A DNA stretch of 64,000 nucleotides from Halorubrum coriense DSM 10284 (GTDB taxonomy: Archaea; Halobacteriota; Halobacteria; Halobacteriales; Haloferacaceae), in assembly GCF_000337035.1 (NCBI RefSeq), contig NZ_AOJL01000026.1:124001-188000 (forward strand). Reading direction: 5' to 3'. A program made the position numbers and the translations under genes. The notes beneath the pieces were generated by a model. The model was not told where the DNA came from and ran no database searches. It saw only the letters and a program-made list of their open reading frames with translations. This document shows, piece by piece, positions 10,743-64,000 of the stretch; the stretch's first letter is position 1, and each line of letters opens with the position of its first letter.

Positions 10743-10780
10743 GTGTGCGTGTCACTGACGCAGGGTGAGGTACCGAGAGG

Positions 10781-47892: not shown

Positions 47893-47893
47893 C

Positions 47894-50534: not shown

Positions 50535-50902
50535 CAGTATTCCCCCCGCTCCCACGCCTGCCGCTCGGCGAGCAGCTGCGTGGCCTCATCGCTCAGCGTG
50601 TAGTCGTTCGTCCGCTTGTCGCGCATGGTCTTCACGACGAGACCGGCCTCAACGAGGTCGTCGAGGTTCGGGTACAGTCGCCCGTGGTTGACCTCGTCGC
50701 CGTACAGCGCCTCTAGCTGGCGCTTGATCCGCAGGCCGTACGCCTCGTGGTCGGCCTCATGGAATAGCGTCCAGAGGATGTCGCGCTTGAACGCGGTCAG
50801 GTCTGCGAACGCGCGCAGCTGCTCGCGAGTCTCGTGATCAGCGTCGATACGTGCCGCGTCGTTGGGCCCATCTTGAATAGGCCCCGAGTTTGACTTACTC
50901 AT
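50534..50902 (-). CDS. PadR-family transcription regulator
   Basis: A 122-residue winged-helix protein. DLTAFKRDILWTLFHEADHE, AYGLRIKRQLEALYGDEVNH, GRLYPNLDDLVEAGLVVKTM and DKRTNDYTLSDEATQLL match PadR. It is the first gene of the nine-gene leftward operon, so it probably autoregulates it. The ATG at 50902 follows an unusually long ~100-nt leader that contains the conserved hairpin at 50951-50974. Confidence 0.85.
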   Translation of the reverse strand: MSKSNSGPIQDGPNDAARIDADHETREQLRAFADLTAFKRDILWTLFHEADHEAYGLRIKRQLEALYGDEVNHGRLYPNLDDLVEAGLVVKTMRDKRTNDYTLSDEATQLLAERQAWERGEY

Positions 50903-50950
50903 GGGTCTCTCGAATGCCCTCGTCACGAGGGCGCCATCTCGGGACCCAGC

Positions 50951-50974
50951 CCGTCGGCGTGCCAGCGCCGGCGG
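50951..50974 (-). promoter_or_regulatory. Conserved leader hairpin, copy 1
   Basis: On the transcribed minus strand arms CCGCCGGCG and CGCCGACGG enclose the loop CTGGCA (one C-A mismatch in the stem). The same stem, with loop GTGGGA, stands before the second leftward operon at 57667-57690, each time followed upstream by CAGAAA. It lies between promoter and start codon and could act as an RNA element or as a DNA operator. Confidence 0.5.
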
Positions 50975-51074
50975 GGTTTCTGCTCCCGCGAAGGCCAGGT
51001 CAACTAACCTTTCACACCCTCTCTACTAATAATTTGCTGTGCTGAATACAGGCTGTGGAGTACTCTTGTGAGTG

Positions 51075-51109
51075 TATTTATATTGGTGTGTAGCGTATAG
51101 CGTAACACC
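51075..51109 (+). promoter_or_regulatory. Promoter and candidate operator of the PhiH1-type repressor gene
   Basis: A TATA-like tatttatat at about 51075-51083 is followed by ggtgt (51085-51089), two direct copies of tagcgta (51091-51104) and acacc (51105-51109), an inverted repeat around the direct repeats. It lies directly before the ATG at 51119, so a bound repressor would block transcription. On the other strand an AT-rich taataatttgc at about 51029 may drive the leftward operon. Confidence 0.5.
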
Positions 51110-51118
51110 GGTATCACT

Positions 51119-51418
51119 ATGAGTTCCACAGTCGAAGCCAGCGTCGTGCCACGAGGACGCGCGGAGTGGATGCGCCCTGTCGATGAGGCTATTCTGGAGC
51201 ATCTGCGCTCGGAGGGGAACCTGACGCCTGACGCGCTCGAAAAGTTGGACGTCACCGTCTCGAACTACGCGAGCAACCGCCTCACGAAGCTCCGCAAATA
51301 CGGGCTCGTCGAGCGGGTTGTCCCGGGTGTCCGAGGCCTTTACCGCATCACTGACGCTGGCGAGGCGTTCCTCGACGAGGAGCTCGACGCCGCCGAGCTC
51401 GATCCGGTCAATTCCTGA
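51119..51418 (+). CDS. PhiH1-repressor-like winged-helix protein
   Basis: A 99-residue protein. PVDEAILEHLRSEGNLTPDA, SNYASNRLTKLRKYGLVERV and LYRITDAGEAFLDEEL form one winged helix as in the haloarchaeal phage PhiH1 repressor group. It is divergent from the PadR operon across a 216-nt control region and is probably the immunity/lysogeny-type repressor of the element, controlling both directions. Confidence 0.8.
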   Translation: MSSTVEASVVPRGRAEWMRPVDEAILEHLRSEGNLTPDALEKLDVTVSNYASNRLTKLRKYGLVERVVPGVRGLYRITDAGEAFLDEELDAAELDPVNS

Positions 51419-51424
51419 TACCAT

Positions 51425-51676
51425 TTACACCACCCGCAGGCCGGGCGCGGCCTTCTTCAACGCGGGGCCGAGCCAGCGCGGAGCCGACCGCCCGGGCGTT
51501 CTCTTCACCTGTCCATACTCGTCGAACGTGAGCGTCCACTCGTCGGTGCCGTGAGCGACCTCAACGGTCGTCTCGTCGTCGTGCTCGTTGATCGTGACGT
51601 CGACGGCAGCGTCGACGTCGAAGCCCAGTTCAGTCAGGTCAACTGTCTTCTGTGTCCGGTGTGCCTGCGGGGGCAT
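51425..51676 (-). CDS. Hypothetical small protein, convergent with the repressor
   Basis: An 83-residue protein: VDLTELGFDVDAAVDVTINE, TTVEVAHGTDEWTLTFDEYG, then a basic tail QVKRTPGRSAPRWLGPALKK. Acidic beta-rich body with basic tail suggests nucleic-acid or protein binding. No family recognised. Its promoter contains a motif shared with the orc1 promoter. Confidence 0.55.
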   Translation of the reverse strand: MPPQAHRTQKTVDLTELGFDVDAAVDVTINEHDDETTVEVAHGTDEWTLTFDEYGQVKRTPGRSAPRWLGPALKKAAPGLRVV

Positions 51677-51698
51677 ACCGCAGCCGACGGGTGGATGA

Positions 51699-51727
51699 AC
51701 GGTAAAAGGGGGCCGTACTTCCGGGGT
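51699..51727 (-). promoter_or_regulatory. Shared promoter motif, copy A
   Basis: On the minus strand ACCCCGGAAG (51718-51727), then three bases, GGC, CC, and CTTTTACC form a block that recurs before orc1 (54089-54118) as ACCCCGGAAG-N3-GGC-TCC-GCTTTATTACC. The T-rich part sits where the BRE/TATA should be. The ten-base core is identical. It probably marks co-regulated promoters. Confidence 0.45.
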
Positions 51728-51728
51728 C

Positions 51729-52499
51729 CTACGCTGTGATGGCTGCGCTCAGCATGTTGTCCCTTTGAGACCACGGGACTAACGAGTCGCTGTAGTTCCT
51801 CAATATCTTCTCAGAGTCATAGCCGAACTCACCCGATTCATCATCAATTACGGAGATGCGATTGACTTTATTTCCGTAGTGGCCCTGGATCTCAGTCCAT
51901 TTATACATCGTTCTTTGGGCCATTGTCTTAGCTGTGGAAGCGTCTTCAGCGTGGAGGGCCTGAATGTATGTTGGGCTTTCCTGACCCCTTACCCCGAAGT
52001 CAACACGGTGCTTTTCAGACGCGCCTTCGACTTCAGGATTGGTATCGTACCGGAATCCCAGTTCAGTGATGTACGTTCCAACATCAGCTCTGAAATCAGT
52101 CTGGGTGTACTGTCTTCTGGTGAAGGTGAGATGAGAGATTGACTGAACAGCCTGGCCCACCTCAAGAATTCTCTGGCCAAGCTCATCTGCGGAGGCAGTT
52201 GTCTTGACCTCTTGCTTCGCTTGGTCAAGGCTGTAGCGCTCTTGGATAGTGTTGACACGGTTAGCTCGACGCTCTTGATCCAGGTTGATGTTTGAGAGGT
52301 ACAGAAGTCCGTAGGTTTCGCCCTCATCAGTAATCGTGTACTGATCGCCGTTTTGAACAACCCACAGACGAATTGCGTCTCCATCCGATCGCTCAAGTGG
52401 GAGTGTAACACGGCAATCCTCACTGTCGGCTTCGATTGACATCCCTGTATCAAAGGCGTCAGTTAGCCGCGGTCGGATAAGTTCGCTACAGTTTGTCAT
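51729..52499 (-). CDS. DUF1828-domain protein
   Basis: A 256-residue protein. The N-terminal ~90 residues (IRPRLTDAFDTGMSIEADSE, RLWVVQNGDQYTITDEGETY, GLLYLSNINL) are DUF1828; the C-terminal part (YITELGFRYDTNPEVEGASE, KHRVDFGVRG, YIQALHAEDASTAKTMAQRT) resembles a DUF1829-like/PD-(D/E)XK-type half with D-x-G and a later Q-A. It is translationally coupled (ATGA) to the preceding DUF6978-like gene. Visibly lower G+C than neighbours. Such pairs occur on mobile DNA and may be toxin/antitoxin or defence units; this is inference. Confidence 0.65.
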   Translation of the reverse strand: MTNCSELIRPRLTDAFDTGMSIEADSEDCRVTLPLERSDGDAIRLWVVQNGDQYTITDEGETYGLLYLSNINLDQERRANRVNTIQERYSLDQAKQEVKTTASADELGQRILEVGQAVQSISHLTFTRRQYTQTDFRADVGTYITELGFRYDTNPEVEGASEKHRVDFGVRGQESPTYIQALHAEDASTAKTMAQRTMYKWTEIQGHYGNKVNRISVIDDESGEFGYDSEKILRNYSDSLVPWSQRDNMLSAAITA

Positions 52500-52912
52500 G
52501 CTTCAAGCCTGTCTTGACGTTGGTAGTCGCCTCTCAGCTCTATATTACATTCATTAAGAAAGTCCTGAAAGGCCTTATCAACATCGTCCGTTGCTACGTC
52601 ATCAACTGGATATGCGCAGTTGTCCTCATACTGCGGATGCCACTTGTGCTTGTGAGAGCCGTCGATCACTTCTCCATCTGGATTCCGATGTCGAGAATCA
52701 TCCCAGCGTCGGACAACTTTGGAGCTTTTGTATAGCAGGCAGAAGCCATATGACCGCCTTTTCCAAGCTTTCAGAGAGAGTATTGCTTCTGAGTCAAAAC
52801 AATATACCGTGGCCTCACCGATCAAGTTTGGTCCATCAGTCTCCCATATCCAGTCTTCTTCGATGATCTTCTTCATGTCGTAGAGTTCCTCGATTTCAGC
52901 TTGTGAGACCAT
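52496..52912 (-). CDS. DUF6978-like protein
   Basis: A 138-residue protein from the ATG at 52912 (an ATG at 52927 is also in frame). QAEIEELYDMKKIIEEDWIW, then SLKAWKRRSYGFCLLYKSSK, RRWDDSRHRNPDGEVIDGSH and KHKWHPQYEDNCAYPVDD match the pattern I know as DUF6978 (HxNPDG and HxH motifs). It is the first gene of the pair with the DUF1828 protein and is low in G+C. It likely binds nucleic acid or metal through the HRNPDG...HKHKWH cluster. Confidence 0.6.
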   Translation of the reverse strand: MVSQAEIEELYDMKKIIEEDWIWETDGPNLIGEATVYCFDSEAILSLKAWKRRSYGFCLLYKSSKVVRRWDDSRHRNPDGEVIDGSHKHKWHPQYEDNCAYPVDDVATDDVDKAFQDFLNECNIELRGDYQRQDRLEA

Positions 52913-52933
52913 GTAACCAGATATCACGATGAT

Positions 52934-52948
52934 TTAACCCCCGGTTAA
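52934..52948 (-). promoter_or_regulatory. Palindromic operator TTAACC-N3-GGTTAA
   Basis: A perfect six-base inverted repeat with three-base centre lies 22-36 nt upstream of the DUF6978-like ATG and overlaps an AT-rich TATA region (atataatt on the minus strand). The position is ideal for autorepression of the gene pair. Because it lies beside the orc1 gene, an origin-type element is an alternative. Confidence 0.5.
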
Positions 52949-52986
52949 TTATATTTTCGCACTCAATTATTCAAATCGAAAAACAA

Positions 52987-54063
52987 TCACTTAGTCATAC
53001 ATTTTAATTGGATTTGTTGTTCATCTATCCCTGTAAGAGGTGCTATAAGCTCACTATCTGTAGGTGCGTACAACCAACGGTGATCCAAGCGTTCACGCTC
53101 GACAAGGTCGTATGCCCGAAGTTTGTTGAGTTTGTTCCGCCGTGAGCGACGGCTAATCGGTGTGTACTCTCGGTTCGCGTAGACACCTTCTTTGATCTCC
53201 TCGTACTGCGCGTGTAGCTTCCGACCAGTCACTTGACTGCCCTCTCGGATCAACTCGTACAGCACGCGGTGATGAAACGGAAGCGACTGGAGATTCGCTT
53301 CACGGATGCTGGCACGAGCGCGCTCGTAGGCATCGTCGACGTCGGTATCATGAATCGATGTGTGTTCGCACTCATTGGCAATCTCGGCAGCCGCCCGGAG
53401 CGTCTGAATCCCTTCCCGGGCCACACCGGCGACGTCGTCGGCGATCGTCTCCAACTGCTTGCGTGAGACGGCGCCGTCGACGAGCCCAACACGAGCCCGG
53501 TCAGCAAGGATGTCCGCGAGCTCGTCGACGCCGAATCGACGTAGCTCGATGCGCCCACTGTGGAGGTACTGCCGAGTGTCAGCCTCTGCGCGGGCCAGCC
53601 AGTCATCTGGCTCGTGGCAGATCACGACGACCTCGACGCCGGGCACGGCAATCAGCTGCCCGACAGCTCCAGTGCCAGCAATGTCGTCGGCCTCGTCAAG
53701 GAGCACGAGGAGATCGTCTCCGACGAGCGTCTCTCGAAGCTTCCTGGGAAGCGTATCGTTCGGCGCGTTGTCGACGACGGACCCACCGGCGCCTCGTATC
53801 GCTTCCCGGAACAGCTCGCCAGTGGTCGTTCCGAGAGCCTGAATCCACGTCCAGTGCGTTCCGAACTCATGACTGAACTCCTCAAGAACGGTCCGGCCGA
53901 GAGCCGTCTTCCCGACACCACTCGGGCCGGCTAGCAGGGCACCCTGGTCGTGGTCGGTACGAGCGCGGTGGAGGAGGCGGATCAGCTCTTGGACCTGCGC
54001 TTCGCGGTGCCGAAGGTCTGGAGGAGGCGTCTCGTCGTCGAAGACCTCTGGACGACGTATCAT
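52987..54063 (-). CDS. Orc1/Cdc6-family replication initiator
   Basis: A 358-residue AAA+ protein. It has Walker A GPSGVGKTAL (residues 46-55), Walker B LLVLLDEADDIAG (about 118-130), a sensor-1 region VVVICHEPDDWL, sensor-2 type VAREGIQTLRAAAE, and a winged helix (FHHRVLYELIREGSQVTGRK to VERERLDHRWLYAP) at the C-terminus. It is somewhat short, like initiators of haloarchaeal plasmids and viruses. It probably starts replication of the element when excised. Its promoter has the shared ACCCCGGAAG motif. Confidence 0.85.
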   Translation of the reverse strand: MIRRPEVFDDETPPPDLRHREAQVQELIRLLHRARTDHDQGALLAGPSGVGKTALGRTVLEEFSHEFGTHWTWIQALGTTTGELFREAIRGAGGSVVDNAPNDTLPRKLRETLVGDDLLVLLDEADDIAGTGAVGQLIAVPGVEVVVICHEPDDWLARAEADTRQYLHSGRIELRRFGVDELADILADRARVGLVDGAVSRKQLETIADDVAGVAREGIQTLRAAAEIANECEHTSIHDTDVDDAYERARASIREANLQSLPFHHRVLYELIREGSQVTGRKLHAQYEEIKEGVYANREYTPISRRSRRNKLNKLRAYDLVERERLDHRWLYAPTDSELIAPLTGIDEQQIQLKCMTK

Positions 54064-54088
54064 GTTGATGACGGCTGACGCGAGCAGG

Positions 54089-54118
54089 GGTAATAAAGCG
54101 GAGCCTCGCTTCCGGGGT
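54089..54118 (-). promoter_or_regulatory. Shared promoter motif, copy B (orc1)
   Basis: On the minus strand the ten-base core ACCCCGGAAG (54109-54118) is followed by GGC and GCTTTATTACC, in the same order as copy A at 51699-51727. TTCC-N5-GGAA also makes this site a weak inverted repeat, so an Orc1 binding site is possible. Confidence 0.45.
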
Positions 54119-54186
54119 GGAACTAAAAGTAAATCAGAGCCACAATTGGCAGAGGTTTTACAACATCATCACACCACTGGGCTGTC

Positions 54187-55242
54187 ATGAGACGTCGAAA
54201 GGTGCTCGCGTTCACAGCAGGTGGTATTGCCCTCCCACTCGCCGGGTGTTCAGGGGACAGCGATAGCGGACCAGAGCCCACGGACAGCGACAGTAGCGAT
54301 GGATCGGACGGCGGTGATGGTAGTGACGGAAGCGACGAGTCCACAGACGAAAATGGGTCTGACGAGAGCGACGATTCTGACTCTGGGCCTGAGCAAGTCC
54401 AGGCTGCTGTCGGCGATCTCGTTGAGGGCGACCAGCTCCACCTCGTCGTTGAGGGGATTGAGCGGACTACAAGCCTCGGTCAGTTCTCCCAGCCGGACGC
54501 TGGCAACGAGTTTGTCGTCGTGTCGCTCGCGCTCAAAAACGTGAGCGACGACTACGTGTCGGTAAGCAACCTGCTCCAGACACGGCTTCGAGACGCTGAG
54601 GATTTCCAGTACGACCAGACGTTCGCCGGTGGCGGCGGGAATACGTTCAACGCCGGCCAGTTCGCACCTGGCGAGGTTGAGCGCGGGACGATCACCTTTG
54701 AGGTACCAGAGGATGCGTCCGGGCTCCAGTTGGTGTTCGACCTGGACGCCTCGATCATCGGCGGCATCGACCGGGCACGGATCAACCTCGGAGAGCAGGC
54801 AGACTCCGTTGCCGAGCTCGAGCAAGACCTCGGTATCGATGTGTACGGGACTGGCGAGGAGATTGGGTATCAAGATGTCGCCGTCACCGTCAACGGAACA
54901 CGAACCGAGTCATCCCTCGGCCAATACTCGCAGCCGGATGAGGGGAACGAGTTCGTTATCGTCGACATCAGCATCACCAACAATACCGGCGAAGAGCGAA
55001 GCTTCTCGACGATCCTCCAAATGATGCTCAAAGACGGCGAGGGGTACACGTATCAAGAGAGTTTGACAGCAACGTCTAGCCTCGATCGATCCTTCGACGA
55101 GGGGACGCCACTGAGCGACGGTGAGACACGACGTGGCGAACTTGCGTACGAACTCGCGGAGGGAACCGCACCGCTCTACTGGGTGTTTGAGTTCTCGGTG
55201 TTTGCGGGCGGCGATAAAACGTTCTGGGAGGTTCGAGGTTAG
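54187..55242 (+). CDS. Tat lipoprotein with two DUF4352-like domains
   Basis: A 351-residue protein. The signal RRRKVLAFTAGGIALPLAGC ends at Cys21; a Ser/Asp/Gly-rich linker runs to about 75. Two similar immunoglobulin-like halves follow, each with a SLGQ(F/Y)SQPD-GNEFV block: about 98-118 and 238-258. They match DUF4352 (TRF2-like) domains of secreted lipoproteins. The second domain has drifted. Such proteins often bind surface partners. It overlaps the leftward operon tail to tail (TTAG). Confidence 0.78.
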   Translation: MRRRKVLAFTAGGIALPLAGCSGDSDSGPEPTDSDSSDGSDGGDGSDGSDESTDENGSDESDDSDSGPEQVQAAVGDLVEGDQLHLVVEGIERTTSLGQFSQPDAGNEFVVVSLALKNVSDDYVSVSNLLQTRLRDAEDFQYDQTFAGGGGNTFNAGQFAPGEVERGTITFEVPEDASGLQLVFDLDASIIGGIDRARINLGEQADSVAELEQDLGIDVYGTGEEIGYQDVAVTVNGTRTESSLGQYSQPDEGNEFVIVDISITNNTGEERSFSTILQMMLKDGEGYTYQESLTATSSLDRSFDEGTPLSDGETRRGELAYELAEGTAPLYWVFEFSVFAGGDKTFWEVRG

Positions 55243-55526
55243 CAGTCGTCCAGCGTGTCGAACGCGTCGCCGGGATCGGCCGGCGACCGCCGAGAGGCGT
55301 CGCGCTGCGGACACGTCGGCTTGTGGACGAGTTCGTCGATGCTCGTCTGGTGGCCTCCAGGACCGTCGACGATCACCTGTGCGCCACAGTAGCGACACCG
55401 CATGAATTTGGTCTCAGTGATGGCGAACCCGTCGACGCTCGGCGGCGACCCACTCTCGACGAGTTCCCACTCAGTGTCGGGGTCGATTACCCTGCGGAAG
55501 GCGCTCATCTGGTCAGCCATCGTCAC
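55239..55526 (-). CDS. Small zinc-ribbon protein
   Basis: A 95-residue protein. The GTG at 55526 is preferred over an ATG at 55520 because it overlaps the upstream stop (GTGA), as elsewhere in this operon. FMRCRYCGAQVIVDGPGGHQ carries a CxxC pair, and HKPTCPQRDA supplies His/Cys for a metal site. It is the last gene of the six-gene operon. No function is recognised. Confidence 0.65.
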   Translation of the reverse strand: MTMADQMSAFRRVIDPDTEWELVESGSPPSVDGFAITETKFMRCRYCGAQVIVDGPGGHQTSIDELVHKPTCPQRDASRRSPADPGDAFDTLDDC

Positions 55527-56104
55527 GGGCCCTCCATGAGCGAGACGGCGGCGCGGTGCTCGCCCTCAACGACGAGTTCGTCTAGCTCCTCGCCACCACA
55601 GGGCACCCACGTCCGGCCGTCCCAGCGGTCGACGTGACGCTCGGCTTGGTGCGGCTTCCCCGGCGTACGTTCGTAGCGGACGCGCCGGCGCTCGCCCGAC
55701 TCGGCCTGGTACGCGATCGTCGGGAGGTTGCTATCGTCACCCTCATTTGAATCCTGGGGCGTACCGTAGAACGCGGTATCAAGGCACGCGATTTCATCTC
55801 CGCGCTCAACCTGCTCGCCGGCACGGTAGTCACGCAGGTCGGGCGCCCATCCGAGTTCCTGACACCACTGCGCGACTGCCCACCGAGCGACCTCGGTCTC
55901 GTCGCCGTCCCAGTTGCCATCGTACCGCTTCCCCTCGATGAGCAGCATCACGAGGTAGTCGATCGGGTTGTCGGCGGTCAGCTGCTCGCCGTCGACGACG
56001 AGCCGAATCGAACTCCGCTCGGCACTCGACGCCGGGATCTCGTCATTTTCCTCGGCCTGTCGGATCTGCTCGTTAACTGCGTTCGCGTGTTCGTTGTCAG
56101 TCAC
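55523..56104 (-). CDS. Hypothetical protein of the six-gene operon
   Basis: A 193-residue acidic protein with GTG start overlapping the preceding stop. The middle ADNPIDYLVMLLIEGKRYDG and VARWAVAQWCQELGWAPDLR are helical; the end (VRYERTPGKPHQAERHVDRW, DGRTWVPCGGEELDE) is beta-like. I do not recognise it. Confidence 0.6.
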   Translation of the reverse strand: MTDNEHANAVNEQIRQAEENDEIPASSAERSSIRLVVDGEQLTADNPIDYLVMLLIEGKRYDGNWDGDETEVARWAVAQWCQELGWAPDLRDYRAGEQVERGDEIACLDTAFYGTPQDSNEGDDSNLPTIAYQAESGERRRVRYERTPGKPHQAERHVDRWDGRTWVPCGGEELDELVVEGEHRAAVSLMEGP

Positions 56105-56469
56105 TGGTCGAACACCTCCGTCCGGCCGTCGGCCGTTGCGATACGCGGGCTCGCGGCGAGGTGCTGGCCCAGCTGGTCGTCGATCGCCGAGCGGTCGACC
56201 CAGCCCGGGATCGGTCGCTCGCCGCGCGCCAGCGCTACGCGGAGCCGGTGCTTACAGCCCTCGTCGGGTGCCCGGTGGAGCGCGTCCGGACAGTCGCAGG
56301 TGTCGGCGATCGCGTCGACGCGGTAGGTACCCGTCGGCGTGACGACGAGGAACTCCTCGTCGCGGAGGTCGTGGTCGAGCGAGTCGTCGATGACGGTCAT
56401 CGACTCGGTGAGGGCCTTGGCTGCGCGCGTGCTGAACTCCCCGGTCGGCGCGTCGGCGGCGCTAGACAT
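56101..56469 (-). CDS. SWIM-type zinc-finger protein
   Basis: A 122-residue protein. YRVDAIADTCDCPDALHRAP, then DEGCKHRLRVALARGE gives the C-x-C-x(n)-C-x-H signature of SWIM fingers, which bind DNA or partners. FLVVTPTGTY precedes it, as in many haloarchaeal small SWIM proteins. The ATG at 56469 overlaps the previous gene by 8 nt (ATGTCTAG). Confidence 0.75.
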   Translation of the reverse strand: MSSAADAPTGEFSTRAAKALTESMTVIDDSLDHDLRDEEFLVVTPTGTYRVDAIADTCDCPDALHRAPDEGCKHRLRVALARGERPIPGWVDRSAIDDQLGQHLAASPRIATADGRTEVFDQ

Positions 56470-56857
56470 CGCCAACCTCCATGTCGCCCCACGCCTGCTC
56501 CACGGGGAGATACATCAGCCGCGCGCTCGGGAAGTCGTAGGTCTTCCCGGGCTTGTGCGCGTTCTGGGGGTTGCCGTCGATGTACACGCACTCGTAGACG
56601 GCGTTTTCGACGTCGATTCCGGGCAGGTACGGGTGCGTCTTGTACGTCGCGAGGTCGTATCCCTCGGCCTCGTAGTGCGCCTCGAGGCTGTCGTACGTAC
56701 ACTTGCGAACGAACACGGCCTGCCGCGTGACGATGTCGATCGCGACGCCGCCCTCGACAGGCTCGGTCTGGACATCGTCGAGCGCGTTCGCGACGCGCTG
56801 CTCGTACGGGAGCTCGGCGTCGTCGAAGTCCGAGTCGATGGCGCCCTGCTCAGACAT
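56462..56857 (-). CDS. Hypothetical protein of the six-gene operon
   Basis: A 131-residue protein. It begins acidic and helical (LPYEQRVANALDDVQTEPVE) and becomes beta-rich (GGVAIDIVTRQAVFVRKCTY, YDLATYKTHPYLPGIDVENA). There is no recognised domain. Its start overlaps the preceding gene by 8 nt (ATGTCTGA). Confidence 0.6.
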   Translation of the reverse strand: MSEQGAIDSDFDDAELPYEQRVANALDDVQTEPVEGGVAIDIVTRQAVFVRKCTYDSLEAHYEAEGYDLATYKTHPYLPGIDVENAVYECVYIDGNPQNAHKPGKTYDFPSARLMYLPVEQAWGDMEVGDV

Positions 56858-57326
56858 TCTTGATCACCCCCTGACGCGTGAACAGCTCATCGACGTCCGG
56901 GAGCGTGTTGCCGTAGTCGACACCGGCGCGCTCGGCCGGGTTCGTGTTCCGAGCGAGCCACTGGCGGGCCTCCCACACGGCTTCACGGAGGTCGTCCTCG
57001 TCGTGGATGTCGGCCCACTCGCCGGCATCCTTCGCGACAAGCTCACACAGCTCGGCGAGTCGCTCGTACGACCGCTTCTCGATGGCGAACTTCACGTGGC
57101 CTGTCGCCTTGTCGAGGTTGCTGGCGGCGTCGTCGTATCCGTTCTCATCGTCGCGATGCGTACACGCCGCGTCGACGGTGCCGTACGCCGCGGCCATCTG
57201 TTGCAGCTGCTCGTCCTCACGGAACCGGTCGTGGATGACGTCGCCGAGCAGCGTGTCGAACGCATCGGCGAACTTTGACTCGAGGCGCGAGATCTCCTTC
57301 TCGGCGGTCCGGTTGAGGTCGCGCAT
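56850..57326 (-). CDS. Hypothetical helical protein of the six-gene operon
   Basis: A 158-residue, mostly helical acidic protein: MRDLNRTAEKEISRLESKFA, DAASNLDKATGHVKFAIEKR, LREAVWEARQWLARNTNPAE. It is coupled by TGATG to the first gene. No family is recognised. Helical bundles of this size in early virus operons are often host-takeover or replication accessory proteins, but that is only context. Confidence 0.6.
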   Translation of the reverse strand: MRDLNRTAEKEISRLESKFADAFDTLLGDVIHDRFREDEQLQQMAAAYGTVDAACTHRDDENGYDDAASNLDKATGHVKFAIEKRSYERLAELCELVAKDAGEWADIHDEDDLREAVWEARQWLARNTNPAERAGVDYGNTLPDVDELFTRQGVIKNV

Positions 57327-57643
57327 CAGAACGCACCTCCGAACACGTCGCGAGCGGTCATCTGCGTACGCTCCGCCCAGCCGACCTCACCGCCGATGAA
57401 CTCGTGGACGTACACGTCGACGGCGTTGCCCATCGCGACGTGCTCGCGAGTGGCGACCCACTCGGCGAGGTCCGACCGGCGTTCGCGAGCGCCGGTCTCA
57501 GTGTCGATACGGTGGACGACCGCAGCGTCGCGGTCGAAGTGGTGGACGTAGCCCTCGGCGTCGACGCCAAGCGACGTGTGCTGCGGGGCGAGGCGTGGTT
57601 GCGAGTCGGTACGGCTTTTGCCGCGTAGGTTATTAGCTGACAT
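57326..57643 (-). CDS. Hypothetical protein, first gene of the six-gene operon
   Basis: A 105-residue protein. RLAPQHTSLGVDAEGYVHHF, then HRIDTETGARERRSDLAEWV and VDVYVHEFIGGEVGWAERTQ suggest a small beta/alpha domain. It follows the leader hairpin at 57667-57690 and the four-box operator. No function is recognised. Confidence 0.6.
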   Translation of the reverse strand: MSANNLRGKSRTDSQPRLAPQHTSLGVDAEGYVHHFDRDAAVVHRIDTETGARERRSDLAEWVATREHVAMGNAVDVYVHEFIGGEVGWAERTQMTARDVFGGAF

Positions 57644-57666
57644 GCTGTCGTTAGTGGACAGCGCGG

Positions 57667-57690
57667 TCGTCGGCGTCCCACCGCCGGCGG
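57667..57690 (-). promoter_or_regulatory. Conserved leader hairpin, copy 2
   Basis: Minus-strand arms CCGCCGGCG and CGCCGACGA with loop GTGGGA match copy 1 at 50951-50974 in 21 of 23 core positions; the two changes are both in the loop. Next to it CAGA-AAG-TCTG can form a second small hairpin. It sits 24-47 nt before the first gene of the six-gene operon. Confidence 0.5.
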
Positions 57691-57726
57691 CCAGACTTTC
57701 TGACCGCGTCCCGCGCTTCCTACTTG

Positions 57727-57821
57727 TTAGTATATTTGCTAACTACTTATAGATTAGCATTTGCGCTAACTATTAGTATATGCGCTAAGTAACGCCCTGT
57801 AGAGGTTAGCAAATACTACAA
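57727..57821. promoter_or_regulatory. Four-copy palindromic operator in a divergent control region
   Basis: Three 16-bp palindromes with outer half-sites TTAG/CTAA lie at 57727-57742 (ttagtatatttgctaa), 57754-57769 (ttagcatttgcgctaa) and 57773-57788 (ttagtatatgcgctaa). A fourth, half-conserved copy is at 57806-57821 (ttagcaaatactacaa). They cover TATA-like stretches of both the leftward six-gene operon and the rightward pair. The spacing (27, 19, 33 bp) suggests co-operative binding by one dimeric repressor. Confidence 0.65.
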
Positions 57822-57844
57822 TGGACACGCACGGAACACGCGGT

Positions 57845-58054
57845 ATGGCGAAGACTCGCGCGCTCCTCACGGAAACGGAGCGCGAGCAGATTGCGGGTGA
57901 GCATGGCGACTCTCGAAGGTATCAGGCAACCTCCAGAGTCCGCGGCCGGATCCAGGAAGAGCTCGAAAGGGACGTGGAGGTCCTTGAGGAGCATCACCCG
58001 GACCTGCTTGAGGAGCTCCGCGGAGTCGTGTGCGAGGAAACCGATGATGAGTGA
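57845..58054 (+). CDS. Small helical haloarchaeal protein
   Basis: A 69-residue protein from the ATG at 57845; the in-frame ATG at 57821 would add eight residues and start inside operator box four. MAKTRALLTETEREQIAGEH and GRIQEELERDVEVLEEHHPD, ending VVCEE, match a small protein I have seen repeatedly on haloarchaeal chromosomes and viruses, without known function. It may be DNA-binding. It overlaps the next gene by about 8 nt. Confidence 0.65.
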   Translation: MAKTRALLTETEREQIAGEHGDSRRYQATSRVRGRIQEELERDVEVLEEHHPDLLEELRGVVCEETDDE

Positions 58055-58307
58055 CGGGAAGACCGAGACGTTCGAGGGGTACCTCGTCCTTGACTGGCGG
58101 TCGGGTGAACAGCGTCAGCGAAAGACAGAGCCCGATGATCTGGCGCCCCACCAGATCGCGATTCCGTACTCGATTGACGTCGAGGTTCCCGACGTGACTG
58201 TGCCGACCATCGAAGCCGCGATCGAAGTCCCCGAGGCTAAGGTCGAGCAGTCGGTCATCGAGGAGACGCGCGATCTCGCAGACGAATACGAAACGGGCGA
58301 CGCGTAG
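58047..58307 (+). CDS. Small acidic hypothetical protein
   Basis: An 86-residue protein. TETFEGYLVLDWRSGEQRQR, KTEPDDLAPHQIAIPYSIDV, then VPDVTVPTIEAAIEVPEAKV. The LVLDWRSGE-R-RK-P-L-PYEI pattern resembles small haloarchaeal proteins that accompany the preceding gene. It has two possible ATGs (58044, 58047) overlapping the upstream stop. Function is unknown. Confidence 0.6.
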   Translation: MSDGKTETFEGYLVLDWRSGEQRQRKTEPDDLAPHQIAIPYSIDVEVPDVTVPTIEAAIEVPEAKVEQSVIEETRDLADEYETGDA

Positions 58308-58365
58308 CCCTCACCCGTTTGCCTTCTGTGAATGTAACAGCGCAGTTGACATCCTAGAGGTTCTT

Positions 58366-58848
58366 TTACTCCGGAGGATCGCCGATCGATGCCCTCTCTG
58401 TGTCGAACTCCTCTAAAATCCGCTCAAATTCAGATATCTCGACCTCAACACCCGCGTCCGGACGGCCACTGCTAAAATTGATCTTGTTGTTCTGGAATAT
58501 TTCGGTGTCTACGTAAATCGGACAGTCGTTATCAGGGAAGAACGGTGGTATTGCTCCGATAGTATATCCGAGATCTTCTTCTATGACTTCCTCGTCAGCG
58601 AATTTTAGGCTGCTGATATTTGCTGTCTCCCTGAGGGCACCAAGGTCGACTTTTCTCTCAGCTGGAACAATCGCAACAACCACCTCCCGCTGGTCGTCCA
58701 AAAATACCATCGATTTTATCATTTCAACGAGAGGGACGTTACGCAATTCAGCTGCCTTCTCAGATGTTAAGGCGTCGCTATTGTGTTCTAACAAGCTGTA
58801 TTCGATTTCACGATCATGAAGATACTCCGTGATTTCTGTTTGTGTCAT
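58366..58848 (-). CDS. YbaK/ProX-type aminoacyl-tRNA deacylase
   Basis: A 160-residue protein. EKAAELRNVPLVEMIKSMVF holds the conserved Lys, and DQREVVVAIVPAERKVDLGA, LGYTIGAIPPFFPDNDCPIY and NKINFSSGRPDAGVEVEISE complete the YbaK fold (G-x-I-P-P-F and the S-S-G-R-P pair are diagnostic). It should hydrolyse mischarged tRNAs. It is notably AT-richer than core genes, a sign of recent transfer. Confidence 0.82.
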   Translation of the reverse strand: MTQTEITEYLHDREIEYSLLEHNSDALTSEKAAELRNVPLVEMIKSMVFLDDQREVVVAIVPAERKVDLGALRETANISSLKFADEEVIEEDLGYTIGAIPPFFPDNDCPIYVDTEIFQNNKINFSSGRPDAGVEVEISEFERILEEFDTERASIGDPPE

Positions 58849-58895
58849 AACACCCTGCTGTGTATACCGGATGGTAGAAATAAGTTAATTAAACC

Positions 58896-59105
58896 GTGCG
58901 ACTGCCGCCAGGTGACGACTCGGGGACGGAGGTGATCGCACGAGCCCCATCACGAGCCAGACAAGGTGCTCGGCGTCGCGAAGGACGTGCCGAGCAGGTC
59001 GTGAAGGGTGCGTTCCGCGAGCTCGTGAAGGAGGGACCACGGCGACCAAGGCGGCAACGACGAGTACGACGCAAGGGAGCTGAAGGGGAGCTCAGGACGC
59101 GTTAA
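58896..59105 (+). CDS. Doubtful small basic ORF in the 58849-59182 gap
   Basis: A GTG-started frame of 69 codons, ending in a very Arg-rich tail (RRPRRQRRVRRKGAEGELRT) after EQVVKGAFRELVKEGP. It could be a basic DNA-binding peptide or a GC-rich non-coding stretch between AT-rich flanks. Nothing else in the gap looks coding. Confidence 0.25.
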   Translation: MRLPPGDDSGTEVIARAPSRARQGARRREGRAEQVVKGAFRELVKEGPRRPRRQRRVRRKGAEGELRTR

Positions 59106-59109
59106 CTGA

Positions 59110-59149
59110 ATGAGTTATATTGTCTGTTGTGGTGTGTAGTATAACTCAT
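59110..59149. promoter_or_regulatory. Perfect 10-bp inverted repeat before the nuclease gene
   Basis: atgagttata (59110-59119) and tataactcat (59140-59149) are exact complements separated by 20 bp. Their centres are 30 bp apart, about three helical turns, 34-73 nt upstream of the nuclease ATG. This is a good candidate operator, or the loop end of a terminator for upstream DNA. Confidence 0.5.
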
Positions 59150-59182
59150 ATTGAAGTATTGTTAGCATAATCACCTCAACAT

Positions 59183-60823
59183 ATGGAACTCGCAGATCTC
59201 ATCGACCAAAATTGGCACAGCTACGAACGGAATCGGTTCCTCAAGGCTGATACAAAGCTCAGCATCGCCGATTTTGACCCGGAAGAATTCAAACACGATG
59301 GTTTCGATGACCGAGACGCGTATCTAGAGACGCACGCCCCTGCCCTTGCTGTCGAAGAGCGCGTACAAGAGGAGCTGAATAACTTCACCCCGCCGCGTGT
59401 CAGTGAGATCAATGATTCGCCGTATCAGGCACTTACGATTAGGTACGGTATCCTCCGGCAGTTGATTCAACAGCCAGACTACAGCATGGAGAAGGACGAT
59501 CTCTTGGACGCGGTACAGGCTTGGCAACATGATCTGATTTCGTCCTTCGAGGAGGGCTCATTCTCCGAATCCGACGATCTTCTTCATCTTGCGAAGGCAG
59601 CCGTCGATTACAAAAATCAGGTCGATGACTCTGAGCTTCACATGGTGTACAGCTACTTCGACCTACACAATCGCTCTTGTGAACACAAACGCGATTACTA
59701 CACGTGGCTCGACTTCTTTTACCGACTGTCTGCGATCGGCCGTTTCCCCAAGGTTTCACGATCTGAGAGCCCTGAACACGCATTGAAAACCATCGAGAAA
59801 GGCCTCTGGTCGCTCCAAGAGCAAGCGCTGGTATATGAGGTAACACCCGAAGACGGAGGGGAACTCGTCGGAATTCCCGAAGATTACATCGACGTGATTC
59901 AGGACTGGCTCCACTACGAGATGTCAGATGCCAACTTCCAGCGGATGCTGGACACGCTCGACGTCTTCGATCGCCAGAGCATCCTTATCGAGGCCCGTGA
60001 CACATTTGATGTTACGGGGAAGAACTACGGGAAGAACCAAAATCGGCGTGAAAATATTGTTGAGGCAGGGGTTTATCCCAGTGAGCTTCTGAGGGAGGTC
60101 GTTCCGAAAGATGTACTGAAGTCCATCGTTGGAGAGTATGGGTTAGACGCCCACAGGCGGAAGACTGAGGAGATGATATCCGCGGTTATCGAATACTTCG
60201 AGCGCTCACAGAGGTCGGTAGACGAGGGTGAACCCGCTGCTGAATTGTTCCTCACTACGTATGATGAAATCGCAGACGGATCCGTGACGGAGATTCCACC
60301 ACAACTTCAGGACCTTGTCGATGCTGACAATCCCTCTGAAAAGATGGATATCCTGTTTGAGGACGCAACGGTGGAGATATTCCAAAATGTGTTCAATCTT
60401 GAGGGGACAAACCAACTCGGTCAGCATTCAAGCGGCGTGGTGGCCGACGGAGAGATCACTCAGGGCGGTGACTGGTTGTTGTGGGATAACAAACGTCGAC
60501 GGCAGAAGTTCCGTCTTGGCAGCAGCACCCGAAGCAAGATTAAAAACTATATTGACACCAAAAGCCAGCAGCACGATGTCGAGTACTTCCTGATTATAGC
60601 ACCCGGGTTTACTGAGAGCGCAGCTGAGAATGCGCTACAGCTGGAGATGGAGATTGGGACGGACATAAGACTCGTCCATGCGACCGAACTCCAGAAGCTA
60701 GCAACAGTCTGGAAAGAAGAATATGCGAGAGAAGAACGTGAACTCCCGCTGTCAGTGTTTCGCGGCTCTGAGACATTTGATGTTGAAACCGCAAAGAAGC
60801 TTCTGGAGACACAGTTCTCATAG
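59183..60823 (+). CDS. FokI-type nuclease with large helical N-terminal region
   Basis: A 546-residue protein. The C-terminal ~140 residues fit the FokI cleavage-domain pattern: NLEGTNQLGQHSSGVVADGE with Asp422, then WDNK with Asp435 and Lys437 (in place of DTK), IDTKSQQHDVEYFLIIAPGF and IRLVHATELQKLA. The first ~400 residues are helical with no recognised DNA-reading domain, and no methyltransferase is adjacent. Lower G+C and lies among cargo genes. It may be a stand-alone restriction, type IV-like or abortive defence enzyme. It ends 3 nt before the hydrolase ATG. Confidence 0.7.
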   Translation: MELADLIDQNWHSYERNRFLKADTKLSIADFDPEEFKHDGFDDRDAYLETHAPALAVEERVQEELNNFTPPRVSEINDSPYQALTIRYGILRQLIQQPDYSMEKDDLLDAVQAWQHDLISSFEEGSFSESDDLLHLAKAAVDYKNQVDDSELHMVYSYFDLHNRSCEHKRDYYTWLDFFYRLSAIGRFPKVSRSESPEHALKTIEKGLWSLQEQALVYEVTPEDGGELVGIPEDYIDVIQDWLHYEMSDANFQRMLDTLDVFDRQSILIEARDTFDVTGKNYGKNQNRRENIVEAGVYPSELLREVVPKDVLKSIVGEYGLDAHRRKTEEMISAVIEYFERSQRSVDEGEPAAELFLTTYDEIADGSVTEIPPQLQDLVDADNPSEKMDILFEDATVEIFQNVFNLEGTNQLGQHSSGVVADGEITQGGDWLLWDNKRRRQKFRLGSSTRSKIKNYIDTKSQQHDVEYFLIIAPGFTESAAENALQLEMEIGTDIRLVHATELQKLATVWKEEYAREERELPLSVFRGSETFDVETAKKLLETQFS

Positions 60824-60826
60824 CAC

Positions 60827-61321
60827 ATGCATCAGAAAGGTCACATCGGTGCGTCGCTCCTCGTATACGCGCCGTTTGGGTTCGTTCTTGCCGCCCTCGC
60901 TTCGATGGAGTTAGCTTTCATCGGCGCCGCAGCCGTTGGGTCAATGGCGATGGTCCCTGACCTCGACATGCGAATTCCGCTGATAAAACACCGTGGGATT
61001 ACTCACACCGTCTGGTTTGCGCTCGTAGTCGGCGCCGCGTTCGGTCTGGTCGGGGCTGTCCTCGGGGTTCAGGAGAGTATCGTCGGCGGTGTGCTGTTCG
61101 GATTTCTCGCGTTCGGCTTCGGCACACTAACGATCGTGTCGCACCTGCTCGCCGACGCGCTCACGCCGATGGGTATCAAGCCGTTTTCTCCCGTCCGAGA
61201 CACGAAGTACACGCTTGATCTGTTCAAAGCCGCGAACCCGATCGCGAACTACGCGCTGCTCGGGCTCGGTGGTGCTGTCGTCGCGGTCGCGGTCGTCGCC
61301 GGCGGCGCAGTCCCGCTGTAA
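60827..61321 (+). CDS. YdjM-like membrane metal-dependent hydrolase, copy 2
   Basis: A 164-residue paralogue of the gene at 46053, with the same length and motifs: GHIGASLLVYAPFG, MVPDLDMRIPLIKHRGITHT and IVSHLLADALTPMG. Four membrane helices. The nucleotide sequence is also close, especially 61135-61175. It lies 3 nt after the nuclease gene, so it may be co-transcribed. The two copies bracket 14 kb of accessory DNA. Confidence 0.8.
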   Translation: MHQKGHIGASLLVYAPFGFVLAALASMELAFIGAAAVGSMAMVPDLDMRIPLIKHRGITHTVWFALVVGAAFGLVGAVLGVQESIVGGVLFGFLAFGFGTLTIVSHLLADALTPMGIKPFSPVRDTKYTLDLFKAANPIANYALLGLGGAVVAVAVVAGGAVPL

Positions 61322-61329
61322 ACGGAGGT

Positions 61330-62160
61330 TCACTCGACATCGTCGAGGCCTTCAACCGTCACGGGTTCACCACAGTGCGGGCACTGCTTCCGTTCGTCAA
61401 GCTCGTTCTCGGCAGCCTCCATGAACCCAGCCGCGAGGATGGACGCCGGGAGCGCGAACATCCCGATCCCGAGGATCGCCGTGATTGCACCGATGAACTG
61501 CCCGGGCATCGTGACGGGGTACATGTCGCCGTATCCGACGGTCGTGAGTGCGGCGACGCCCCACCACATGGTCGCTGGTATCGACGAGAACTCCTCCGGC
61601 TGGGCCCCGCTCTCGATGAAGTACATCACCGAGCTCGCGACGACGAGCAGCAACCCGTTCGCGAACACCGCGATGACGAGCTTCTCTTTCCGGTCTTCAA
61701 GAACCCAGCCGAAGGTCCGCATCGCAGTTGAGTAGCGAGCGAGCTTCAGCAGTCGGAACAACCGGATGAGCCGCAGCGCTCGGAGGAATCGGAGGTCGAA
61801 CCCGATACCGGTGATGGCGATGTAGAAGGGCGCGATCGCGAGCAGGTCGACAATCAGCAGAGGGCGACTCGCGAACCGGAGCCGGCCGACGATCGCGCCG
61901 GAGTACTTGTCCGCTTCGACGGCCGACCACACACGGGCCGCGTACTCAATTGTGAACACGGCGACTGAGAAGATCTCAAAGGCGCGGAAGAGGCGAGCGT
62001 ATGGCTCGTAGATGGTGTCGACCGTCGTGGCGATCACCGCCGTGACATTAGCGATGATCAGCAACATGATAAACCAGTCGACAACATACCCGATTCGACC
62101 GCCGTCTCGGGGGGAAAACAGTCGGTGAGTTCGCTCGCGGATCGATCGAGGCCCAGCCAT
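61330..62160 (-). CDS. Kv-type voltage-gated potassium channel
   Basis: A 276-residue six-helix channel. S4 carries regularly spaced Arg (RFLRALRLIRLFRLLKLARY), the pore filter is TVGYGDMYP, and the pore helix MWWGVAALTT precedes it. S6 is IGAITAILGIGMFALPASIL. A CPHCGEP pair near the end suggests a metal site. It resembles KvAP. The ATG at 62160 was chosen; a TTG at 62172 would add four residues. Convergent with the hydrolase gene, 8 nt apart. Confidence 0.88.
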   Translation of the reverse strand: MAGPRSIRERTHRLFSPRDGGRIGYVVDWFIMLLIIANVTAVIATTVDTIYEPYARLFRAFEIFSVAVFTIEYAARVWSAVEADKYSGAIVGRLRFASRPLLIVDLLAIAPFYIAITGIGFDLRFLRALRLIRLFRLLKLARYSTAMRTFGWVLEDRKEKLVIAVFANGLLLVVASSVMYFIESGAQPEEFSSIPATMWWGVAALTTVGYGDMYPVTMPGQFIGAITAILGIGMFALPASILAAGFMEAAENELDERKQCPHCGEPVTVEGLDDVE

Positions 62161-62191
62161 ATGCTGAGCCAACAGCCGCTGCTACATGAAA

Positions 62192-62365
62192 TTATATTGT
62201 CTTGTCGATGAGGCAGACGGCTAGCTCACTGATCTCGAAGCGGTCGTCGCAAATAAATAGCGCAGCGAGGTGCCGAACACACTTGTCGGCATTCACTACT
62301 TGTGTGGCCTCGCGTCCAGCGCCGACGTCGAGGCGCAGAAGATCGCCGACTGGTAGTATCGCTGA
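62192..62365 (-). pseudogene. Open frame without start, remnant of a small protein
   Basis: On the minus strand a frame runs from the TAG at about 62366 to a TAA at 62192-62194. Its readable part is LLRLDVGAGREATQVV, then NADKCVRHLAALFICDDRFE and ISELAVCLIDKT, with no ATG. The AALFICDDRFEIS stretch resembles IASLFASDDRFEAS at the C-terminus of the 62676 gene, so it may be a decayed tandem copy. Confidence 0.3.
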
Positions 62366-62572
62366 CTACAACGGTCTCATAATCTCTGCCGGCTCTTTGT
62401 GCTCGTTGGTCCAGGCGATGACTGCCTCACAATGGCGGCAGCGGAGTTCTTTGCCGCTCGGAATGAGGTGCTTGTGCTGTGCCGTGAACATCTCACCGCA
62501 TGCCGGGCAGTCGTACTCGTCCCCTCGCTCAACCTCTTCCAAAACGTGATCGCCTATTGTGCCATGTGGCAT
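62366..62572 (-). CDS. Small double-CxxC zinc-ribbon protein
   Basis: A 68-residue protein. DEYDCPACGEMFTAQHKHLI and ELRCRHCEAVIAWTNEHKEP carry two CxxC knuckles of one zinc ribbon. The ATG at 62572 is preferred over the in-frame upstream codon because conserved residues start MPHGTIGDHV. Nucleic-acid or protein binding is likely; no specific role is known. Confidence 0.6.
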   Translation of the reverse strand: MPHGTIGDHVLEEVERGDEYDCPACGEMFTAQHKHLIPSGKELRCRHCEAVIAWTNEHKEPAEIMRPL

Positions 62573-62675
62573 ACCCCTAGATAGACCTGATATATGAATC
62601 AACGCTGCGGGTCGCAAACGGACACGGGACGGTATAAGTGGAAAAAATGAGTCTACTCGCGCGCCCCGGCTAACT

Positions 62676-63341
62676 CTACCCCCGCTCGCTCGCCTCGAAG
62701 CGGTCGTCGCTCGCGAACAGCGACGCGATCTCCGCGACGCCGCGGTCAGCGTCCCACCCGTCGCCGCGGTAGTGGCGGACGGGCTGGCGCCACGCCGACC
62801 GCTCGTAGTGCGCCCAGAGGCGCGTGCCGCCGTCCGGCGCCGGCGTCAGACGGACGTGGTACTGCCAGACTGCGAGGAACCCCTGCGGTCGATACGCGTA
62901 GCTGCCGACCTCCCAGACGCGACGCCCGTCTGCGACGTCGAACTGGATCGACGCGAGGGTGTTTGGCCACACGCGCTCCATCGAGCGGAGCTCCTCGCGG
63001 ACGGCCTTGGGTGGTGCGTCCACGACGCCGACGTACTCCTCCGGCTGGAGCGGCAGCCCTGTCTTTTCCGGGAGGGCGTCGACGGCAGCCGACACATCGA
63101 TAGAGGTGTGTCCGTCGACCCGCTCCACGACGTCATCGTACTCGCCGTCGGCAAGGCGGTCAAGGGCGGGCAGCACGAGGCGCCGCGCCCGCCACAGATC
63201 GGGCCATCGCCCGAGGTGTCGGCGGGCGGCGACGAACAGCGCGAGCGTGACGAGCGGGACGATGATCGGTCCCCAGAGGTCAGCGGTCGCTAGTGGTTCG
63301 GTAGTGATGCGTCTCAGGGTGTTGTAAACTGACTGTATCAT
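62676..63341 (-). CDS. Membrane-anchored conserved haloarchaeal protein (paralogue of the 32963 gene)
   Basis: A 221-residue protein. One membrane helix (LWGPIIVPLVTLALFVAARR) is followed by a soluble domain. EVGSYAYRPQGFLAVWQYHV, then RLTPAPDGG and LWAHYE mirror the protein encoded at 32963-33514. Function is unknown. An AT-rich stretch at 63355-63395 provides the promoter. Confidence 0.65.
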   Translation of the reverse strand: MIQSVYNTLRRITTEPLATADLWGPIIVPLVTLALFVAARRHLGRWPDLWRARRLVLPALDRLADGEYDDVVERVDGHTSIDVSAAVDALPEKTGLPLQPEEYVGVVDAPPKAVREELRSMERVWPNTLASIQFDVADGRRVWEVGSYAYRPQGFLAVWQYHVRLTPAPDGGTRLWAHYERSAWRQPVRHYRGDGWDADRGVAEIASLFASDDRFEASERG

Positions 63342-63492
63342 TGTTACTGATTGTCGAGGCGCATGAAGATCAAAAGGTATTCAATATTTGACTGACAGAA
63401 CGGAGGTAGGGACCATTGGTCCCTGCTGGAGACGGGTCGCTCCCTCCCCCATCCTCTGACCTGCCCGTCTCCTGCTCCTGCTGCGTCGTGGG

Positions 63493-64000
63493 TCAGACGT
63501 TGCGTGAGACGGCACTAATCCCAGACCGGATTTCGCCGAAGACATCGCGCGCGGCTTTGCGACTCCCGAGTGTCAGCGACACCTTCCGGGCGTTGCTGTT
63601 GATATTCCGCAGTTCCATCGGGCCTTCAAACGGCAGTTGCTCGGTAGGGATCGACGCGACAAGCGACTGGTCGGGATCGGCCTTACGAACAGTCACATCA
63701 GCCTCTTCAAGCGGCGCAGCCACCTCGCGGACGACCGCGAGCGCCACCTGTTGGCACTCACGGTTGCTCGTTGCATCAGGGACTGACTCGCGCAGCGTAT
63801 CGGGATCGTCGACGGCGGGCTGAGTGTACCGCCCCTCGAAGCGCGCCTCGTAGTCGATGGCGTACTCCGTATCGGGTGACATCGATCCGCCTTCGAGAAT
63901 CTCGATGGTTCCATCTGAGTTGTCGAGCAGGTAGTCGATGTTGTGCTCGTATTGCGTCGAGCGGTCACCGACATCGTAGACGGTCTCGGACCCCGTGTCG
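63493..64000 (-). CDS. Probable virion/tail-associated protein, C-terminal part (cut by window edge)
   Basis: The frame is open from the right edge of the window to the TGA at 63493 (about 168 codons seen). The order YEHNIDYLLDNSDGTIEILE, GGSMSPDTEYAIDYEARFEG, RYTQPAVDDPDTLRESVPDA and CQQVALAVVREVAAPLEEAD resembles C-terminal parts of haloarchaeal tailed-virus baseplate or tail proteins, with the repeated VDYE strand motif. The ATG at 63882 is internal, not the start. Confidence in the role is moderate. Confidence 0.5.
   Translation of the reverse strand, partial: DTGSETVYDVGDRSTQYEHNIDYLLDNSDGTIEILEGGSMSPDTEYAIDYEARFEGRYTQPAVDDPDTLRESVPDATSNRECQQVALAVVREVAAPLEEADVTVRKADPDQSLVASIPTEQLPFEGPMELRNINSNARKVSLTLGSRKAARDVFGEIRSGISAVSRNV

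Follow-up and report, generated by a model that had tools for sequence, protein, structure and literature searches.

An orphan FokI-type nuclease gene in the haloarchaeal provirus Humcor1 and its possible part in superinfection exclusion

The question raised by this locus is what a nuclease gene with no methylase beside it does for the virus and the cell that carry it. The gene lies in a stretch of 64,000 nucleotides of Halorubrum coriense DSM 10284, called the window here and numbered from its first letter. A sequence-only reading had taken it for a single-gene defence system in cargo DNA, a stand-alone FokI-type nuclease with an N-terminal sensor region. The gene and its parts are as follows.

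59183 to 60823, + strand: nuclease gene, ATG at 59183, stop codon ending at 60823, 546 amino acids
59183 to 60226, + strand: N-terminal region, residues 1-348, with no sequence match, conserved and under purifying selection
60227 to 60820, + strand: FokI-type cleavage domain, residues 349-546, as indicated by structure matches, a profile link and conservation
60446-60448 (D422), 60485-60487 (D435) and 60491-60493 (K437), + strand: catalytic codons, invariant in 21/21 relatives and equivalent to FokI PD...DTK

By protein comparison the product is 100% identical to HrrHm1_140 of Humcor1 (QRG24139.1), which is labelled 'hypothetical protein'. The N-terminus had been said to lack known domains, and this was borne out, as the protein had no match to a Pfam, NCBIfam or PADLOC model (E<=1) or to a PDB sequence (E<=10). 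Limited literature searches retrieved no paper on the nuclease by its locus tag or protein accession and nothing on its family under FokI and haloarchaea; going by these searches and by database annotation alone, the family appears to be undescribed.

On the predicted structure, the C-terminal third is a cleavage domain of the FokI/N.BspD6I type. The AlphaFold2 model of the protein, built on a 9-row alignment, had a mean pLDDT of 49, with values of ~78-88 from residue 421 on and 51-72 at residues 350-420. When the C-terminal domain was compared with known structures by VIA-align the leading matches were N.BspD6I (2ewf, Z 15.1, rmsd 3.4, 187 aligned residues), FokI (2fok_B, Z 14.7, rmsd 3.2, 158 aligned) and R.BspD6I2 (2p14, Z 13.2), with the next different fold at Z 8.8. 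Foldseek placed FokI at the top with an E value of 9.4e-7, and its ranks 1-10 were all FokI and BspD6I. CARF nucleases, Avs4, EcoT38I and HindIII also appeared in the VIA list (Z ~6-9) and were taken to share the PD-(D/E)XK core only. The catalytic D...(D/E)xK falls on adjacent strands of the model (423-427 and 430-435), and the proposed active site of D422, D435 and K437 is present in full and invariant in all 21 aligned relatives, as is E393. Structure prediction, which had been suggested as a check, was therefore informative for the C-terminus, where a FokI-type nuclease fold was found, and not for residues 1-350, where the model was of low confidence and nothing was read from it.

Sequence comparison points weakly to the same place. 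In Pfam the FokI_cleav_dom family (PF09254 fold group) matched four of the 21 relatives with a best E value of 0.013, and no match for the cleavage domain rose above the cut-off, G288 scoring 17.1 bits against a cut-off of 25. A second haloarchaeal family, which has a FokI_cleav_dom match, aligned with nuclease residues 386-509 only (hhalign E 2.4e-4, probability 43.6), catalytic residues falling on catalytic residues, and in turn aligned with FokI's own PDG...DTK at E 0.037. A search of 194 genomes with RE_AlwI gave no match, and the control genomes gave none either.

The N-terminal region offers less to compare with. Residues 1-350 matched nothing among the sequence families of Pfam, NCBIfam and PADLOC or among PDB chains, and a second AlphaFold2 prediction of this region, on a 10-row alignment, reached a mean pLDDT of 39. 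Identical columns make up 27 of 47 in residues 179-225, against 56 of 161 in residues 386-546. Of the 28 conserved K/R, 12 fall in the segments 179-225 and 280-345, which are close to neutral whereas the rest of the protein is acidic, a charge pattern that would fit contact with DNA. A helix-strand-strand-helix pattern at ~197-246 of the low-confidence model and a sequence at ~309-342 that looks SAP-like by eye were noted and are not claimed as domains.

Relatives of the nuclease were found in 22 of 391 genomes of the class and in 13 of its 86 genera. There were 19 full-length intact copies in 18 of those 22 genomes; the copies of G226, G195 and G060 were broken and that of G336 was split over two contigs. 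A sample of the phylum gave matches in 5/392 genomes, all from the same order, a scan of genome contigs gave nine loci, all haloarchaeal, a plasmid collection gave one match, on a Natrinema plasmid, and IMG/VR and phage records each gave only Humcor1 itself. Forcing the five Halorubrum copies into one clade made the tree 66 log units worse (p-AU 0.0002), and the window copy grouped with a copy from another genus, with support of 89/90 that is not decisive. The tree does not follow host taxonomy and the gene has spread laterally.

Where dS was measurable, dN/dS was ~0.03-0.07 in each third of the protein, so that purifying selection is strong and even along its length. A decayed or neutral gene was ruled out for the intact copies by these values together with the invariant catalytic residues. 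In the relatives' alignment the N-terminal two-thirds was constrained like the catalytic part and contained no fast-evolving patch. A recognition domain engaged in an arms race often diversifies, and the lack of diversification here speaks for a single conserved ligand rather than for the sensing of something variable. The proposal that the protein senses something other than a fixed site was not supported; a constrained N-terminus is no less compatible with a single conserved ligand, which could be a fixed DNA motif.

It became apparent that the gene is part of a known virus. Window positions 46617-64000 correspond to Humcor1 positions 38393-21010, 17384 bp with zero mismatches that begin at the virus att sequence, and window position 46617 is contig position 170617. 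PMC7911831 describes Humcor1 as a provirus induced from Halorubrum coriense that is predicted to be a siphovirus and occupies nt 170617-217091 of the contig. As the stretch is identical to Humcor1, the 'cargo DNA' of the sequence-only reading is an inducible virus; the surmise that the gene sits in horizontally moved DNA was right, but the cargo is an intact, named and inducible provirus. The features that matter here are these.

46617 to 64000, no strand: left part of the Humcor1 provirus, which extends past the window; att sequence at 46617-46637
46642 to 47892, + strand: Humcor1 integrase, adjoining the att sequence, located by the Humcor1 annotation and a coordinate match
60827 to 61321, + strand: YdjM-family membrane protein, starting 3 nt after the nuclease stop codon, a possible co-transcribed neighbour
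61330 to 62160, - strand: ion channel (PF00520), convergent with the nuclease and YdjM genes and recurring near some relatives

The nuclease gene lies outside the structural and replication operons of the inducible provirus. In Humcor1 it and the YdjM gene are oriented against the flanking late and early operons, the nuclease being antisense to the late operon. Lysogenic-conversion genes often run against the operons that flank them. Humcor1-like virus genes also surround the relative in Halorubrum rubrum (L033), which is in the same slot, and the relative in G126 (L034), which adjoins orc1. The closest named virus to Humcor1 is BJ1, according to PMC7911831; its corresponding slot, matched by gene order, contains other genes including a putative glycosyl transferase. 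Elsewhere in the provirus a gene at 52496-52927 on the - strand matched DUF6978 (2.9e-15) and, weakly, toxin TumE (0.003), and is possibly part of a toxin-antitoxin pair.

Comparison of Halorubrum genomes at the att site of Humcor1 revealed further nuclease genes. In Halorubrum G153 (L037 7793-10860) the nuclease is part of a 3.07-kb insert flanked by a YdjM gene and by the 21-bp Humcor1 att sequence, in G111 (L079 1429-1500) the same flanks are 72 bp apart and constitute an empty site, in G027 (L035 ~8297-11563) the same place holds the nuclease and an Mrr nuclease, and in the window's genome it is occupied by the whole provirus. The neighbour of the nuclease in G027 is Mrr_cat and not an integrase. 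The further genes of the G153 insert include a UPF0175 gene and a 206-aa ORF without a Pfam match, which appears PIN-like by eye. The Humcor1 att site of Halorubrum swaps nuclease-bearing segments and by analogy looks like a defence hotspot. A YdjM gene adjoins the nuclease in both G153 and G027, with the nuclease following, and the YdjM genes compared were the following.

60827-61321 and 46053-46547: YdjM genes of the window
7247-7792 of L037 and 7733-8296 of L035: YdjM genes of the related loci

At the amino acid level the YdjM of Humcor1 is 71% identical to the host YdjM that flanks its att site in G153 and G027. To judge from this likeness Humcor1 may have acquired the nuclease/YdjM pair from host DNA flanking the att site, with a gene order that differs.

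The ion channel recurs as well. It was found within 1.5 kb of the nuclease in three of 20 genomes (G000, G105 and G248), with 2 nt between the two stop codons in G105, and a fourth case came from a separate record (Saliphagus L050, 87 bp, truncated ORF).

7192-8004 of L044, 11204-12022 of L039 and 9729-10265 of L050: other ion channels

The channel was convergent with the nuclease in three of the four cases, which are from unrelated genera. About 0.006 cases were expected at random against the three seen, and when a thirty-fold clustering of mobile genes was assumed P was still ~0.001 for this association, which was noticed after the fact. Most copies of the nuclease have no ion channel nearby.

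Upstream of the gene are two elements.

59110-59119 and 59140-59149, no strand: arms ATGAGTTATA and TATAACTCAT of a perfect 10-bp inverted repeat, centres 30 bp apart
59150 to 59159, + strand: upstream element ATTGAAGTAT, a probable promoter element common to 16/21 relatives at a similar distance from the ATG

The perfect 10-bp repeat that had been reported before the gene, with its 30-bp centre-to-centre distance, exists as stated. It is unlikely to be due to chance, because when the 200 bp upstream of the gene were put through 1000 single-base shuffles, repeats of at least 10 bp with a gap of at most 40 arose in just 4 of them. When 66 loci were searched for the exact pattern, only three copies of the same DNA contained it (the window genome, an IMG/VR contig and the Humcor1 record), and the repeat was discarded as a family feature, being confined to this copy. 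A phage-wide operator was likewise rejected; besides the two arms, the repeat sequence occurs once in Humcor1, with one mismatch, so that no regulon is visible. The upstream element, unlike the repeat, is shared with relatives. By plain count ATTGAAGTRT is found at -31 to -36 in 17/22 copies including that of the window, and the gene therefore seems to travel with its own promoter, as we infer from this shared element. The motif presumably differs from the usual haloarchaeal TATA box and may be the binding place of a specific regulator. In the window the element directly abuts the right arm of the inverted repeat.

Whether a methylase accompanies the nuclease was followed in 23 neighbourhoods, 20 of them of 13.5-19 kb and three from other records, some being cut by contig ends. 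No gene was constant across the 23. A D12 adenine methylase adjoined the nuclease in one (G017), at a distance of 85 bp, and an Mrr nuclease adjoined it in two (G027 and G017). The G017 locus (L040 7409-11146) has the D12 methylase, the nuclease and the Mrr nuclease in a row, with a PF00145 methylase 4.3 kb off, and no other locus places the nuclease in a restriction island that has a methylase next to it. Among 188 neighbour proteins screened for motifs, no further methylase was confirmed by Pfam; Pfam tallies of neighbours covered 128 of these proteins and, out of 80 and 92 families, the 25 most frequent, so that rare families could be missed. A gene of PF01555, PF00145 or PF02384, the families covered by the genome-wide methylase search (PF02086 was left out), lay within 10 kb of the nuclease in 4/20 genomes, the nearest at 4.3 kb. 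No methylase was present in Humcor1's annotation or beside the window gene. A restriction enzyme beside its own methylase was thus rejected as the general case. Homologues next to cognate methylases, which had been named in advance as a finding that would refute the sequence-only reading in favour of ordinary restriction, were met with at the G017 locus alone. The assertion that no partner is present held for the methylase, which is usually absent, and overlooked the YdjM gene 3 nt downstream.

The best explanation, with a probability of about 0.5, is that Humcor1, a temperate siphovirus, carries the nuclease as a lysogenic-conversion ('moron') gene and that the product is an orphan DNA endonuclease serving superinfection exclusion. 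A target-recognition part (residues 1-350) would precede the FokI-type cleavage domain, and the lysogen would express the protein from the gene's own promoter. The N-terminus would dock on a feature present in incoming and absent from resident DNA, be it a motif, a base modification or a structure of the DNA, whereupon two cleavage domains would pair, as in FokI, and cut the invader. A partner methylase would not be needed, because resident DNA would be without the feature or other methylases of the cell would keep it masked there. The gain would lie in superinfection exclusion, with the nuclease probably shielding the host cell from other invading DNA. DNA as the ligand, pairing of the cleavage domains, expression in the lysogen and defence as the benefit, and with them the term single-gene defence system, are what we infer from the observations above.

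Lysogenic conversion is favoured by the provirus location and moron-like position of the gene and by two other Humcor1-like proviruses that carry relatives. The cleavage domain, the invariant active site with its low dN/dS, the spread against host taxonomy and the want of a regular methylase speak for the explanation as well. Defence is favoured by typical company at some loci, namely the Mrr nucleases of G027 and G017, the D12 methylase of G017, helicase/PLDc and PDDEXK neighbours in G389 and the UPF0175 gene of G153. The att-site hotspot shared with Humcor1 and empty in G111, and the upstream element of 17/22 copies, count on the same side. Against the lysogenic-conversion reading stand the many copies that sit among ordinary metabolic genes and not in defence islands, the N-terminus without a recognisable DNA-binding domain, the one neighbourhood in 23 with an adjacent methylase and the lack of any PADLOC match to the window protein. 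A bolder version is doubtful. It would make the nuclease a new methylase-independent archaeal immune family, in which an undescribed 350-residue recognition domain unlike every known reader drives a FokI-type cutter, which temperate archaeal viruses carry as a superinfection-exclusion device, sometimes with a membrane partner (ion channel or YdjM).

The alternative that survives best, unlikely as it is, is a split restriction-modification system, in which the protein would be a type IIS-like restriction enzyme for a fixed short site and its methylase would lie elsewhere in the genome. The closest folds, FokI and BspD6I, belong to such enzymes, the recognition part is conserved and not diversifying, and to the D12 gene 85 bp from the nuclease in G017 can be added two PF00145 methylases on other contigs of the window's genome. 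Yet of the three methylase families searched genome-wide none occurred in all carriers, PF01555 being found in 16, PF00145 in 12 and PF02384 in 16 of 20 genomes, and of these families G000 has PF00145 only. A virus that moved such an enzyme without its methylase would, moreover, endanger its new hosts.

Somewhat less likely still is a modification-dependent, type IV-like nuclease, whose N-terminus would read a modified base of invading DNA and for which a protecting methylase would never be needed. Its transfer between genera and its orphan state in 22/23 neighbourhoods are compatible with this, the orphan state being no more than compatible, and Mrr, a known type IV kind, adjoins the nuclease at two loci; but searches of Pfam, NCBIfam, PADLOC and the PDB found no known modified-base reader domain, and the carriers themselves encode adenine or cytosine methylases. 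That the protein is an enzyme of the virus lytic cycle, used for instance to break down host DNA or to process the genome, is improbable. The gene is on a virus genome and in at least two other Humcor1-like proviruses, but most copies are outside recognisable Humcor1-like proviruses and still intact, BJ1 has other genes in the slot, and the gene is antisense to the late operon. A free-standing homing-type endonuclease that spreads by cutting empty sites would account for single-gene cargo between unrelated flanks, a patchy distribution and an empty site beside filled ones, but is very improbable, since homing depends on a single conserved site but the places of insertion vary from genus to genus, and since the inserts of G153 and G027 hold further genes and end at the virus att sequence, which points to an integrase.

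The locus matters for several reasons. A conserved and laterally spread FokI-type protein that is nearly always without a methylase needs some other means of sparing its host, and to find that means would show what the nuclease recognises. Whether a temperate archaeal virus arms its lysogen can also be put to the test here, as the virus can be induced, the host is in culture and insert-free relatives exist. Users of enzymes could take an interest in a FokI-type cutter that comes from a high-salt organism and has a new recognition module.

Among known systems the type IIS enzyme FokI (PDB 1fok/2fok) has, like the window nuclease, a C-terminal cleavage domain with the same active-site layout. 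In FokI an N-terminal recognition part precedes that domain, and FokI-type restriction enzymes normally come with a methylase; the N-terminal 350 residues of the window nuclease matched neither FokI nor any other PDB chain by sequence, and the nuclease and its relatives are usually without a methylase neighbour. N.BspD6I / R.BspD6I (PDB 2ewf, 2p14) provided the best structural match of the C-terminal domain, and D456/E469 of that system have the same 13-residue spacing as the two acidic residues of the window nuclease. The BspD6I cleavage protein acts as a subunit of a heterodimer, whereas no second subunit gene was seen here and no sequence similarity to BspD6I was found. Haloarchaeal FokI_cleav_dom proteins of ~450 aa (L061, L062, L063 and L065) align through their C-terminus over residues 386-509 and are stand-alone ORFs too, possibly also orphans, while in the same alignment their N-terminus is unrelated to that of the window nuclease. 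Mrr-type type IV restriction nucleases (PF04471) work without a methylase and, as noted, adjoin two relatives of the window nuclease; they are a different nuclease subfamily, with no Mrr match to the window protein in Pfam. The PADLOC candidate single-gene systems (PDCs), reported in PMC12988326 as enriched in archaea, match no part of the window protein at E<=1, and one of the 21 relatives, a broken copy, has a weak PADLOC match to PDC-M02A (E 2.1e-4). As far as that source describes them the PDCs resemble the window nuclease in being single genes of patchy occurrence in Halobacteria. Set beside all of these, the fold and the kind of gene are already known, and what is new lies in the recognition part, in the setting on an archaeal virus and in the orphan status.
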